A stretch of 64,000 bases of DNA from Clostridiales bacterium (GTDB lineage: Bacteria; Bacillota; Dethiobacteria; Dethiobacterales; Dethiobacteraceae). The stretch covers positions 62,001-126,000 of the forward strand of contig JAGXRM010000030.1 of NCBI GenBank assembly GCA_018335855.1, read 5' to 3'. The translations under genes were made by a program, and so were the position numbers. Below are positions 1-37,024 of the stretch, piece by piece; position 1 is the stretch's first letter; the number at the start of each line of letters is the position of its first letter. A model generated the notes under the pieces. It searched no databases. It saw only the letters and a program-made list of their open reading frames with translations, and had not been told where the DNA came from.

Positions 1-638
1 TTAAGCAGTTCCGCTTCAAAAAAGGAACGGGTACCGGAGCCTGGTTCCCTCATCAAAAGTTTATAGCCAATGATATCAGCAACCGTTAGGTTGTTTTTAT
101 GTAATAATTCCTGGTATTCTTCCCTGTTTGGTACAGCCAAAACGAGTTCGTCGTTTAGAAGAGCGGTATATGTAAGTCTGGGCAAAAAATGTTTTTCGCC
201 AACAATACCATATGGGTAATGATAGTTATGTACATCCTCGCATACCTGGCGGGAGTTTTCCTGTTTTAATGCAACCGAAACCATGGGAAACTGCAACTCA
301 AAAGCGGCCACTATCTGGGGAAGCAAATACTGGCACGGTACAGAACTTGCCGCAATGGTAAGAGTTTCCTCACTGACTATATTACTGCTTCTGATGTCAG
401 CCAGAGCGTTTGCCCGGATATCGAGGAGATCTCTGGCATAACGATACAGCGTTTCACCGGCTGAGGTTAAGATTATTTCATTTTTACCCCGGTCTAAAAG
501 GGGCATGGCCAGTTCAGTCTCCAGGCTCTTCACATGGGCACTGACGGTTGGCTGACTTAAAAATAATTGCTGTGCAGCTTTAGAAAAGGAACGTTGCGCA
601 ACAACGGCAACAAATGCTTCCAGTTGGTAGAACTCCAT
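1..638 (-). CDS. LysR-family regulator, selenium-locus associated (3' end outside window)
   Basis: DNA-binding regulator divergent from the yedE cluster. The ATG at 638 opens a frame that stays open to the window edge, about 212 residues. The first 60 residues are a typical LysR winged helix-turn-helix (SKAAQQLFLSQPTVSAHVKSLE-like, residues about 18-40, given here in part), followed by the start of a periplasmic-binding-protein-like effector domain (AASSVPCQYLLP region). Known: NCBI recognises a LysR subgroup associated with selenium metabolism next to yedE. Inference: it controls the divergent selenium genes. The effector is unknown. The C-terminal third is not in the window. Confidence 0.9.
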   Translation of the reverse strand, partial: MEFYQLEAFVAVVAQRSFSKAAQQLFLSQPTVSAHVKSLETELAMPLLDRGKNEIILTSAGETLYRYARDLLDIRANALADIRSSNIVSEETLTIAASSVPCQYLLPQIVAAFELQFPMVSVALKQENSRQVCEDVHNYHYPYGIVGEKHFLPRLTYTALLNDELVLAVPNREEYQELLHKNNLTVADIIGYKLLMREPGSGTRSFFEAELL

Positions 639-804: not shown

Positions 805-835
805 GAATGTGGTTACTAATTATTGGAGGTGAATG

Positions 836-1918
836 ATGAATAAACGTTTAATTATTGTTAGCGGGATTATAGCGGGATTTTTTGGAGTGCTGCTTGTCCG
901 GTTCGGCAACCCGGCCAATATGGGTGTTTGTGTTGCCTGTTTTGTACGGGACATATCAGGGGGGCTGGGCTTGCACAGGGCGGCAGCTGTCCAGTACATA
1001 CGGCCTGAAATATCCGGATTTATTCTTGGCTCATTTATTATTGCCTTGTTTGTAGGAGAGTTTCGCGCCCGCGGAGGCTCTTCCCCCATTATCCGCTTCT
1101 TTATTGGAATGGCTGTAATGATTGGAGCATTAGTTTTTTTGGGCTGTCCGCTGCGCATGGTTTTACGGCTTTCTGCGGGTGACCTGAATGCATTGGTTGG
1201 TCTGTTCGGATTTATTTTTGGTATCTATATTGGTGTACTTTTCCTGCGGCGCGGTTTTTCTCTGGGGCGTTCCTATAATCTGAGCTCCGGTAACGGTATG
1301 GCAATCCCTGTACTCGCTATTATATTGGTTATTCTTTTGATGACGGCACCTATATTTATCTTTTTCAGTGAAAGCGGTCCCGGCGCTGCCCGTGCTCCGT
1401 TTCTTATTTCCCTGGCGGCAGGTTTGATTATCGGCATGGTCGTTCAACGCAGTCGTTTATGTCAGGCTGGTTGTTTCCGTGACCTGATGCTGATTAAAGA
1501 CCCACACCTGCTTTACGGCTCTCTGGCGATCTTTGTCGCTGCTTTTATCGGTAATATGGCGCTTGGTTACTTCAAATTCGGCTTTGCCGGTCAGCCTGTC
1601 GCCCATACAGACGGTGTTTGGAATTTCCTTGGCCTTGCCGTTGTTGGCTTGGGTGCCACCCTTCTTGGCGGTTGCCCTCTGCGTCAGACGGTAATGGCCG
1701 GTGAAGGTGACTCGGATGCGGCCATGGTTTTTCTGGGATTGTTATTTGGCGCTGCTTTCTCCCATAACTTCGGGTTGGCCGCAAGTCCAGCCGGTGTCGG
1801 CGCAGCTGGTCAATGGGGCGCTGTGATTGCCGGGGCTTTCCTCCTCCTCGTCGGCTTTACATTTACACTGCCAAAGGTTAAAATCCCAGTTAAAGGGGGC
1901 GTCACCCATGAGCGGTAA
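836..1918 (+). CDS. yedE: YedE-family putative selenium transporter
   Basis: Polytopic inner-membrane protein of about 360 residues with roughly ten hydrophobic segments. It has two YeeE/YedE repeats, each with a GCPLR motif (cysteines near residues 105 and 281), plus a VCVACF motif near residue 33 and CQAGCFRD near residue 210. The family moves thiosulfate or selenium compounds; the YedE branch is linked to selenium metabolism. ATG codons lie at 833 and 836; GGAGG at 825-829 is 3 and 6 nt away, so 836 is preferred. It overlaps the downstream TusA-like gene by 11 bp, so they are probably translationally coupled. Confidence 0.9.
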   Translation: MNKRLIIVSGIIAGFFGVLLVRFGNPANMGVCVACFVRDISGGLGLHRAAAVQYIRPEISGFILGSFIIALFVGEFRARGGSSPIIRFFIGMAVMIGALVFLGCPLRMVLRLSAGDLNALVGLFGFIFGIYIGVLFLRRGFSLGRSYNLSSGNGMAIPVLAIILVILLMTAPIFIFFSESGPGAARAPFLISLAAGLIIGMVVQRSRLCQAGCFRDLMLIKDPHLLYGSLAIFVAAFIGNMALGYFKFGFAGQPVAHTDGVWNFLGLAVVGLGATLLGGCPLRQTVMAGEGDSDAAMVFLGLLFGAAFSHNFGLAASPAGVGAAGQWGAVIAGAFLLLVGFTFTLPKVKIPVKGGVTHER

Positions 1919-2126
1919 TATTGATGTGAGAGGCCTTTCCTGTCCCGAGCCGGTCATACGAACGAAACAAGCATTAGATCAGGGGTTAACCAATATCACT
2001 GTACTGGCCGACAGTCGGGTATCCGCTGAAAATATCCGCCGTCTGGTCAAAAATTATGACTGCTCCTGTACCGTTGATGATCAGAATGGAGAGTTCACAA
2101 TCACAATTAATAAAGAAGGAAAATGA
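1908..2126 (+). CDS. TusA-like sulfur/selenium carrier (short YedF-type)
   Basis: A 72-residue SirA/TusA-fold protein with the signature RGLSCPEPV; Cys12 would carry a persulfide or perselenide. It has only the TusA domain, unlike the two-domain YedF at 59.5 kb. The start overlaps the end of yedE (ATGAGCGGTAA). Family knowledge: TusA domains next to YeeE/YedE transporters hand on the imported chalcogen. Inference: it receives selenium or sulfur from YedE and passes it to the DUF3343 protein or another acceptor. Confidence 0.88.
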   Translation: MSGNIDVRGLSCPEPVIRTKQALDQGLTNITVLADSRVSAENIRRLVKNYDCSCTVDDQNGEFTITINKEGK

Positions 2127-2130
2127 TAAC

Positions 2131-2415
2131 TTGGAAGATTACTATGTTGCCACGTTTCATTCTGTTTCCCAGGCGCTGCGGTTTGAAAAAATGCTGCTTT
2201 CCCAGAGCGTGACCGTAAAACTGATTCCGGTGCCCCGTGTCCTGTCTTCTTCCTGCGGGATTGCTGCCCGCTTTGGCGAAGATGTTTATCCCAAGATTAC
2301 GGAACTGGCGCAAAGAGACCTTGCTGAGTTGGAAGGGGTTTACCGTTTTACTCACCAGGGCAGAAAGGCGCAAGCCCACAGTTGTCCCGGTCCCTGGGAT
2401 GAAAACAGTGAGTAA
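2131..2415 (+). CDS. DUF3343 putative Se/S carrier-like protein
   Basis: About 94 residues from a TTG at 2131, 10 nt after AAGGA; an upstream in-frame start would overlap the TusA-like gene by more than 70 bp and reads as non-homologous sequence, so it is rejected. The body has the DUF3343 pattern: an N-terminal TFHSVSQALRFEK segment, then LSSSCGIAARF with one conserved cysteine near residue 42. DUF3343 proteins occur beside YedE/YedF and are described as putative sulfur or selenium carriers. Function is inferred from family and context only. Confidence 0.8.
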   Translation: MEDYYVATFHSVSQALRFEKMLLSQSVTVKLIPVPRVLSSSCGIAARFGEDVYPKITELAQRDLAELEGVYRFTHQGRKAQAHSCPGPWDENSE

Positions 2416-2480: not shown

Positions 2481-2744
2481 GTGTTGCAGTTACCTCTGAT
2501 TGTGAACATGTTTTTTGAAATTTTGACATGGTTGATTATTGCCAGGGTCATTCTGTCCTGGATTCCGCATAATCCTGATCATTCTGTTCTGCGACTACTT
2601 TATGAAGGCACAGAACCCATCCTGGCTCCGTTTCGAAAGCTTATGCCTAAGGGCGGATTACCACTTGATCTGTCCCCCATCCTCGCTCTGTTAGTGCTGC
2701 AAGTTTTACGGCAAGCCTTGATTCAAATGATGTACAGATTATAG
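2481..2744 (+). CDS. YggT-family membrane protein
   Basis: An 87-residue protein with two hydrophobic segments. The central SWIPHNPDH and EPILAPFRKLMP motifs are diagnostic of the YggT family, which is linked to membrane or division-site functions in other bacteria and has no firm biochemical role. The start is GTG at 2481, with AAGGAG ending 8 nt upstream; a TTG follows at 2484. The link to the selenium genes is positional only. Confidence 0.85.
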   Translation: MLQLPLIVNMFFEILTWLIIARVILSWIPHNPDHSVLRLLYEGTEPILAPFRKLMPKGGLPLDLSPILALLVLQVLRQALIQMMYRL

Positions 2745-2750
2745 TAGAAT

Positions 2751-2792
2751 AAAAACCTCCCGGTGATACAAACTATCATGGGAGGTTTTTTT
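2751..2792 (+). terminator. Intrinsic terminator whose 3' arm contains the next gene's Shine-Dalgarno
   Basis: An 11-bp perfect stem (2751-2761 with 2780-2790) encloses an 18-nt loop and is followed by a T-run. It lies 6 bp after the yggT stop. The right arm GGGAGG is also the ribosome binding site of the ATG at 2793, so any transcript reading in from yggT would pair that site. Confidence 0.8.
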
Positions 2793-2972
2793 ATGTACCT
2801 TTTTGGTGTAAAACGCAATATTGGACGCTTTGATATGGTGGTTAGAATTATTTTAGGCAGTATTCTTATAGCTCTCGGTGCATTGCGTGTATTGCCTGGC
2901 AGTTATATAGGGGCGGCCATTGCCGTTATTATCGGCGCCTTCTTAATGATCGAAGGTGCTGCCCGCTACTGA
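2793..2972 (+). CDS. YgaP-like (DUF2892) small membrane protein
   Basis: A 59-residue protein: a short basic N-terminus with the motif KRNIGRFD, then two hydrophobic stretches (about 17-33 and 38-55). This is the DUF2892 / YgaP transmembrane pattern (NxGxxDRxxR-like start), found alone or fused to rhodanese domains. Start is ATG 2793, 7 nt after GGGAGG; an upstream in-frame GTG at 2763 lies inside the terminator stem and is unlikely. YgaP fusions to rhodanese make a sulfur-related role plausible, but nothing here proves it. Confidence 0.75.
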   Translation: MYLFGVKRNIGRFDMVVRIILGSILIALGALRVLPGSYIGAAIAVIIGAFLMIEGAARY

Positions 2973-3039
2973 GTATTTTACAGTCTTCTGGGTTGGTCAA
3001 CCCGGAAAGAAAAAAATATCAGGTAAAAGGGGGATGTTT

Positions 3040-3288
3040 ATGGACCAGCCAACGATTACTGTTTATTCCGCAGGTAAATACTGAGGACCGTGTCTGGAAG
3101 TGAAAGAGTTCCTTTCACAAAATCGGGTCACGTTCAAAGAGTACAATATTGTTGAGGACCGCAATGCATTTGAAGAAATGTGGCTTATTTCGGGCCAAAA
3201 GGCAGCGCCGGTTATTAGTGTGAATAACGAAATTGTTATCGGCTTTAAAAAAGACAGGTTGGAAGTCCTTCTGACAAGAAAATCTTAA
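3040..3288 (+). CDS. Glutaredoxin/thioredoxin-like selenoprotein, UGA-encoded Sec at residue 15
   Basis: Frame from ATG 3040 (GGGGG 7 nt upstream; another ATG at 3034) to TAA 3286-3288 gives 82 residues if the in-frame TGA at 3082-3084 is read as selenocysteine. The TGA falls at the first position of the redox motif: Y-U-G-P-C, where family members have CGPC or CPYC. The rest is glutaredoxin-like: VYS strand before the motif, VKEFL helix after it, the YNIVED strand, AAPVI with the cis-proline, and a C-terminal GFKKDRLEVLL helix. A SECIS-like hairpin follows at 3100-3118. Standard gene calls start at an internal GTG near 3100 and lose the active site. The Sec machinery (selA/B/C) is not in this window. 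Confidence 0.85.
3100..3118 (+). promoter_or_regulatory. SECIS-like hairpin
   Basis: Perfect 7-bp stem GTGAAAG / CTTTCAC with loop AGTTC. The loop G is its second base, followed by T, and sits 23 nt after the UGA. Published bacterial SECIS rules ask for a small apical loop with a G in its first two positions about 16-37 nt from the UGA; this fits. Confidence 0.75.
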
Positions 3289-3302: not shown

Positions 3303-3335
3303 ACAAGCGGACAGTTTGTCCGCTTGTTTTCTTTT
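3303..3335 (+). terminator. Rho-independent terminator after the selenoprotein gene
   Basis: 10-bp perfect stem ACAAGCGGAC / GTCCGCTTGT, 5-nt loop, then TTTTCTTTT. It closes the plus-strand selenium cluster. Confidence 0.85.
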
Positions 3336-3399
3336 AGTCCATTGTATATAATGTGTTCAGTATGTGGTTGAATTTGGCTACAAAAGAGGGGTGATTCGT

Positions 3400-3813
3400 T
3401 TGGGACAACTGGAAAGTAAAGTGATTGCCGGCGCTGCCATCCGCTTGGCGCTTTCCGCAGACCGTGAGGCGGAGCGGGAGTTAAAGGCCGCATTGGCAGA
3501 GGAAGGGATTAAAGCGACAGCCGTAGATTACGGTGGTGAGTTTATATCATCAGTTCAGAAAGTGGTGGAACGGGCTGTTGTCGCAGCGAAACGGGAGGGT
3601 ATTATTGAAGGCACACACCTGGCAGAAGGCGGCGTAGCCGGGGCGGCCAGAGAAGCCCTTTCACAAATCATGCCAAAAGCTCTGGGGTTAAATGTGGGTG
3701 GCAAAGTTGGTATTGCCAGGAAGGGTGATCATGTTGCCGTGGCCATTTTTTTTGCAATAGGTTTATTGCATTTAAACGAGGTCGCCATCGGTCTCGGGCA
3801 CCGGGCCATCTAA
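3400..3813 (+). CDS. HutP-family RNA-binding antiterminator-like protein
   Basis: 137 residues from a TTG at 3400, with GAGGGG about 8 nt upstream; an in-frame GTG at 3364 would add 12 residues without a ribosome site. The C-terminal third (GDHVAVAIFFAIGLLHLNE then GLGHRAI) aligns with the conserved end of Bacillus HutP (IAVSLYGTIGAP, GVGINHI), which binds hut mRNA with histidine and Mg2+. No hut genes are nearby, so its target here is unknown. The last 42 bp overlap the convergent 3' end of dinB. Confidence 0.75.
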   Translation: MGQLESKVIAGAAIRLALSADREAERELKAALAEEGIKATAVDYGGEFISSVQKVVERAVVAAKREGIIEGTHLAEGGVAGAAREALSQIMPKALGLNVGGKVGIARKGDHVAVAIFFAIGLLHLNEVAIGLGHRAI

Positions 3814-36743: not shown

Positions 36744-36779
36744 AAAAAAAGCCTCTCGTCCTGAAAAGGACGAAAGACT
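36744..36779 (-). terminator. T-box terminator hairpin
   Basis: 12-bp stem (36750-36761 with 36768-36779, two G-U pairs), 6-nt loop and seven T on the minus strand; competes with the antiterminator that includes the T-box sequence. Confidence 0.88.
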
Positions 36780-37018
36780 GACTTTCGCGGTGCCACCTTC
36801 ATTGGTCTGTACATATATACAGACCCACTTTGACAGGTACGGGAACAAATATCCGATACCCCGTTCCGTATAACGTCGGAACTTGACGGCGGAGCCTACT
36901 AACCTTCGGTCCGCAACTCAAGGGCCCATTCAACGGCGGCCTTTTTACCGGATTCTCACCTACCCCGGCTCTCTGAGAAAAAGTGCCACTCCGTTTACTC
37001 TTCCCTGTCATTGTAATT
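36744..37018 (-). promoter_or_regulatory. Trp T-box riboswitch leader
   Basis: The T-box sequence AAGGTGGCACCGCG (36786-36799) is followed by a terminator hairpin and T-run. Stem I shows CAGAGAGCC and the GGTAGGTGAGAATCC region near 36955-36975. GAATGGGCC holds the specifier UGG (36926-36928), the Trp codon. Uncharged tRNA-Trp should favour readthrough into trpE. Confidence 0.93.
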
Positions 37019-37024
37019 AAAATC

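Follow-up and report, generated by a model that had tools for sequence, protein, structure and literature searches.

The window, i.e. the whole 64,000-nt stretch of DNA that was analysed, carries a gene for a small glutaredoxin in which the UGA codon at 3082-3084 very probably specifies selenocysteine (Sec) at the active site. From sequence comparison, we consider it highly likely that this gene encodes a Sec glutaredoxin that would be decoded by SelB, act through Sec15/Cys18 chemistry, be regenerated by a reductant other than glutathione, and serve protein thiols or selenols. This assignment follows from the position of the TGA at the catalytic Cys, the conserved SECIS, the complete Sec machinery of the genome, and the selection acting on both sides of the TGA. 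Related bacteria have already yielded Sec glutaredoxins, and the window gene is a further, divergent one.

When the TGA is read as Sec, positions 3040-3288 of the plus strand translate as one 82-residue frame (MDQPTITVYSAGKY-U-GPC...RKS; in full, MDQPTITVYSAGKYUGPCLEVKEFLSQNRVTFKEYNIVEDRNAFEEMWLISGQKAAPVISVNNEIVIGFKKDRLEVLLTRKS), which ends with a TAA codon at 3286-3288 and is preceded by a likely ribosome-binding site, AAGGGGG (3027-3033). The active site of the full product is U15-G-P-C18. A sequence-only reading of this DNA had described a frame broken by the TGA at 3082-3084, with a Y-U-G-P-C active site and an 82-residue product, all of which is borne out by the translation. It had also anticipated that standard annotation would give a 62-residue protein, and the only remnant of this frame in the standard-code list of ORFs is indeed a 62-aa ORF starting with GTG (3100-3288).

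With Cys in place of Sec, the product matches the Pfam Glutaredoxin domain (PF00462) with 48 bits for a cut-off of 22.9. The UGA occupies the position of the N-terminal active-site Cys, and the resolving Cys is located three residues further on, as in the UxxC Sec glutaredoxins. AlphaFold2 predicts a glutaredoxin fold (pLDDT 92), for which glutaredoxins are the top Foldseek matches. In the predicted succession of elements (strand 6-10, helix 16-27, strand 33-36, helix 41-51, strands 58-61 and 64-67, helix 71-80), residue 15 is found directly before the first helix.

Among 200 related genomes searched for relatives of the Sec glutaredoxin, 77 gave matches, and 47 homologous genes were extracted after re-orientation and extension of the hits. 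At the position of the UGA, 36 of the 47 genes have TGA and the 11 others a Cys codon, no other residue being observed, and both this U/C column and Cys18 are invariant (alignment A2). The expectation that homologues would have Cys at this site thus holds in the form of Cys or TGA without exception. The nearest orthologues, from two other genera of the family, both have TGA; their motifs are UGSC (locus L013) and, in Dethiobacter sp. CROMO_A_105, UMSC (L010/L012, a scan of contigs with the protein giving L010 as the single orthologue). Over codons 3-14, which precede the TGA, the window gene and L013 differ by five synonymous and no non-synonymous changes. On the tree, which is weakly resolved (47 rows, 80 columns), there are at least six changes between Sec and Cys. 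The selA gene, searched in the same set of related genomes, is present in nearly all of those carrying TGA genes, and the exceptions seen are the incomplete assemblies G023 (75%) and G029 (90%). This survey shows that Sec-glutaredoxin genes are widespread in the selenium-using relatives of the source bacterium. The clade of the window gene (UGPC, UGSC, and UMSC) shares 68-71% identity internally and at most 46% with the other rows of the alignment; a search of 98 genomes of the class detected it in three.

With regard to the SECIS, the UGA is followed, after a 15-nt spacer, by a hairpin with a 7-bp stem (arms GTGAAAG, 3100-3106, and CTTTCAC, 3112-3118) and the loop AGTTC (3107-3111). These features had been recognised in the sequence-only reading, which however placed the G of the loop at nt 23 after the UGA; the loop opens at nt 23, and its G is nt 24 (3108). 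The arrangement is that of a bacterial SECIS, with a stem-loop soon after the UGA and a G in loop position 1 or 2. Folding of the single sequence was dropped as proof, as the hairpin proved no better than chance for stretches at or just after the UGA (z -0.3 to -1.1) or relative to synonymous recodings (p = 0.16), and comparative tests were therefore used, the significance of the SECIS coming from the comparison across genes rather than from the lone hairpin. Nucleotide 24 is G in 35 of 35 comparable TGA genes (counted without L056, whose hairpin is offset by one base) versus 5 of 11 Cys genes. This site is mostly the third base of a Glu codon, where changes are mostly synonymous; the codon is GAG in 32 of 32 cases, compared with 86 of 255 at the other Glu positions of these genes (Fisher p 2.6e-14, a value inflated by relatedness). 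Furthermore, two-sided changes occur in five of eight pairs, a count reached in none of 500 shuffles, although this value, like the Fisher one, overstates independence because the homologues are related. Two of the Cys genes, L018 and L021, which are close to Sec genes, retain remnants of the hairpin, and most other Cys genes are without it. The conserved SECIS (GUGAAAGAGUU(U/C)CUUUC) can serve directly as a signature in searches for members that have been missed.

The source genome (2.96 Mb, 60 contigs, 99.5% complete) possesses the genes of a Sec-decoding organism, for which the sequence-only reading had proposed a search: selA (C20:38827-40194, 578 bits), the adjoining selB (385 bits), selD (380 bits), which has an internal TGA of its own, and selC in the form of a tRNA-Sec with the anticodon TCA. 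Since TGA is the stop codon of ordinary genes as well, the DUF2892 gene (2970-2972) among them, read-through must be signalled locally.

Two other explanations of the UGA have to be weighed against Sec. It might be a plain stop in a decayed gene or a sequencing error, perhaps with a 62-aa internal product starting from the GTG at 3100; such an ORF is present and the lone hairpin is not significant, but TGA recurs at this codon in another two genera and, overall, in 36 of the homologous genes, the coding sequence upstream of it is constrained, and the SECIS covaries. According to the structural model, the 62-aa product would also be devoid of strand 1 and both active-site residues, and we regard a plain stop as very improbable. 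If a variant code or a suppressor recoded UGA as Trp, Cys, or Gly, read-through would likewise give an intact protein. However, TGA terminates ordinary genes here, the sel genes and tRNA-Sec are present, and the residue seen in homologues at this site is Cys rather than Trp or Gly, which makes this explanation scarcely credible, even less so than the plain stop. The decoding of the UGA as Sec is consequently preferred.

UxxC Sec glutaredoxins are an established family of prokaryotic selenoproteins (PMC13188914), and the earlier suggestion of a new member, or of a new context for a known selenoprotein family, was well founded, since the nearest relative with a solved structure is a known Sec glutaredoxin. 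In terms of both sequence and fold, the best solved match is the dithiol cGrx1 of 7c10 (about 43% identity; Foldseek TM 0.83/0.90, rmsd 1.4). The identification of cGrx1 with Clostridium (Alkaliphilus) oremlandii Grx1 rests on the shared name, the C16S variant in 7c12, and the chains of 7c13, which contains a chain identical to the cGrx1 of 7c12 together with a C. oremlandii-type MsrA chain. Natively, C. oremlandii Grx1 harbours Sec13 and Cys16 (PMC4479559), corresponding to U15 and C18 here. The window protein shares with it the predicted glutaredoxin fold, a UxxC motif in which Sec would be native, and the presence of a Sec-MsrA in the genome. In contrast, its active site reads UGPC, as opposed to CPHC in the solved cGrx1, one more residue precedes Sec, and its gene adjoins selenium-transport genes and is paired with a DUF2892 gene.

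Among NCBIfam models, the YruB family (TIGR02196) gives the best match, with 66 bits over a near full-length alignment, and it matches all 42 family members scanned; the protein was nevertheless not filed there, as the curated cut-off is 88.55. It also resembles the UXX-star families, which are small glutaredoxin-like selenoproteins, but again the scores fall short of the cut-offs (NF041212, 35.2 versus 66 bits; NF041114, 21.6 versus 72; NF041211, 25 versus 100; NF047338, 16 versus 97). Unlike families 1 and 2, for which the motifs UxxT and GxGU, respectively, are tabulated (PMC13188914), it has kept the resolving Cys18. An assignment to thioredoxins was likewise rejected, as the CGPC-type motif UGPC is found in the window only, the orthologues having UGSC or UMSC, and the Pfam match is Glutaredoxin and not Thioredoxin. 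By sequence comparison, what is new is the divergent clade alone, which lies below every NCBIfam cut-off. Its members are called by no NCBIfam model and are cut off by standard ORF calling.

Table 1. Position of the Sec-glutaredoxin gene, its predicted elements and neighbours, and related genes elsewhere in the source genome (G000).
Feature	Position	Strand	Basis
LysR regulator, selenium-metabolism type	1..638	-	NF040786, 222.6 bits (cut-off 250); part cut by window start
YedE-type putative selenium transporter	833..1918	+	TIGR04112, 487 bits (cut-off 200)
TusA / YedF N-domain	1908..2126	+	Pfam TusA, 61.6 bits
DUF3343 Se/S carrier-like (Se_S_carrier)	2131..2415	+	PF11823, 69.1 bits
YggT family membrane protein	2481..2744	+	PF02325, 87.3 bits
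Terminator-like hairpin and T run after yggT	2751..2790	+	-20.6 kcal/mol, z -4.6; kept in 3 orthologous loci
DUF2892 / YgaP-like transmembrane protein	2793..2972	+	PF11127, 34.8 bits (cut-off 25.3)
Near-palindrome GGGTTGGTCAACCC, DUF2892/Sec-glutaredoxin intergenic	2990..3003	+	Kept in 3 orthologous loci
Sec-glutaredoxin gene (predicted)	3040..3288	+	Translation with TGA = U; Pfam Glutaredoxin; purifying selection on both sides of TGA; AlphaFold2 fold
UGA codon, predicted Sec15, catalytic position at N-terminus of helix 1	3082..3084	+	47 homologous genes: TGA in 36, Cys in 11 at the aligned codon
Bacterial SECIS (predicted)	3085..3118	+	15-nt spacer; stem 3100-3106/3112-3118; loop AGUUC, G at 3108
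Intrinsic terminator closing two-gene unit	3303..3327	+	11 pairs, then T-rich tail; z -6.05
Sec-MsrA	L073 1321-1988 (C38:159851-160255)		MsrA_helical domain partly recognisable
Second Sec-glutaredoxin, UTYC	L053 2716-2949 (C10)

The gene had been described as closing a cluster of selenium genes (LysR, YedE, TusA-like, and DUF3343). Pfam and NCBIfam searches confirm these neighbours and the position of the gene after them, but the terminator-like hairpin and the pattern of insertion speak against membership in their operon. Between DUF3343 and the Sec-glutaredoxin gene, a YggT gene, the hairpin at 2751-2790, and a DUF2892/YgaP-like gene had been overlooked. The order LysR, YedE, TusA, DUF3343, YggT, DUF2892, Sec glutaredoxin, HutP, and DinB is the same in three genera. 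YedE was found in 20 of 20 family genomes (19 above the cut-off), whereas DUF2892 with a window-type Sec glutaredoxin is inserted between YggT and HutP in three of the 20, some of the other clusters stopping at a contig end. The DUF2892 gene adjoins this Sec glutaredoxin in all three genomes that have it and occurs in no other cluster read, and yggT is followed by a terminator-like hairpin with or without the insertion. In view of this hairpin, the insertion pattern, and the strong terminator at 3303-3327, the two genes are best seen, on genomic grounds, as a two-gene unit of their own next to the selenium operon.

In other respects, the 3' arm of the hairpin after yggT includes GGGAGG, the Shine-Dalgarno sequence of the DUF2892 gene. 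Within 2751-2795, this arm (GGGAGGTTTTTTTATG) thus has a double role, and the 16-nt stretch is identical in the three genera, which suggests that the region may act as an attenuator or as a leader hiding the ribosome-binding site.

Regarding the mechanism, SelB and Sec-tRNA-Sec would decode the UGA, making production of the protein dependent on selenium. The Sec15 selenolate, at the start of helix 1, would attack a partner protein at disulfides, selenenylsulfides, or sulfenic/selenenic acids, and the mixed intermediate would then be resolved by Cys18. No glutamate-cysteine ligase (PF04262 or PF04107) was found in the source genome; native glutathione is therefore doubtful in this organism, and thioredoxin reductase or some other non-glutathione donor is the probable reductant. 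By analogy with C. oremlandii, whose MsrA is reduced by glutaredoxin and not by thioredoxin (PMC4479559), the best-supported class of targets would be oxidised protein thiols or selenols, with the Sec-MsrA encoded in this genome as an example. The MsrA search in this genome returned one gene, with TGA at the catalytic site (AMGUFWG) and without Cys; among solved structures, those of C. oremlandii MsrA are its best matches. The transfer of the cGrx1 substrate is nonetheless weak owing to the low identity of the clade with other family members, and the location of the gene beside selenium-transport genes, not msrA, also counts against an MsrA partner. Either of the two Sec glutaredoxins of the genome may serve MsrA. 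A Sec-MsrA close to the C. oremlandii enzyme, together with the lack of a detected glutamate-cysteine ligase, makes this organism a natural place to ask how a Sec glutaredoxin works without glutathione.

The second Sec glutaredoxin resembles the window protein in fold family, TGA placement, and SECIS hairpin, and shares 40% identity with it over 67 residues. It is flanked by ORFs that read as dihydroxyacid dehydratase and ketol-acid reductoisomerase, its surroundings thus resembling branched-chain amino-acid biosynthesis genes. A close relative (L054, in genome G010) has Cys and no comparable hairpin.

The genomic context also raises the question of selenium assimilation, in which the Sec glutaredoxin and DUF2892, with YedE, TusA, and DUF3343, would reduce incoming selenium (for instance selenite-derived selenotrisulfides or perselenides) or hand it on towards SelD. 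The unit directly follows YedE-TusA-DUF3343-YggT in three genera, and thioredoxin-type proteins can share in selenite reduction (PMC8538045). On the other hand, all 20 family genomes have YedE and just three this Sec glutaredoxin, and a terminator-like hairpin separates the units. Two other genera have a rubrerythrin-family protein (L102 2020-2740, 58 bits; L106 3040-3750) between YggT and HutP instead, which points to an oxidative-stress slot. We thus judge a role in assimilation unlikely. As a more specific and similarly speculative proposal, DUF2892 and the UGPC/UGSC/UMSC Sec glutaredoxin might constitute a membrane-linked selenol redox module for imported selenium or for the carrier thiols of YedE/TusA/DUF3343, gated by selenium through the UGA and by the leader hairpin hiding the Shine-Dalgarno sequence. 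The reduction of oxidised protein thiols or selenols remains the preferred function of the Sec glutaredoxin.

Several further features of the region were noticed. The near-palindrome GGGTTGGTCAACCC shows a central T/C change among the three genera; a palindrome regulon was considered and set aside, as the genome contains the exact motif only once. Beyond LysR, both orthologous clusters carry an aminotransferase that reads as a cysteine desulfurase/selenocysteine lyase-like ORF (L010 3-656; L070 12589-13746), possibly a further member of the selenium cluster. Directly after the Sec-glutaredoxin gene, a HutP-family protein (histidine-dependent RNA antiterminator family) is encoded at 3364-3813 (163 bits); it stays beside the YedE cluster in several genera, with 75-90% identity, and is better conserved than most neighbours. 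Finally, a T-box leader at 36763-37020 on the minus strand (121 bits) is the sole Rfam match of the window at the gathering threshold.
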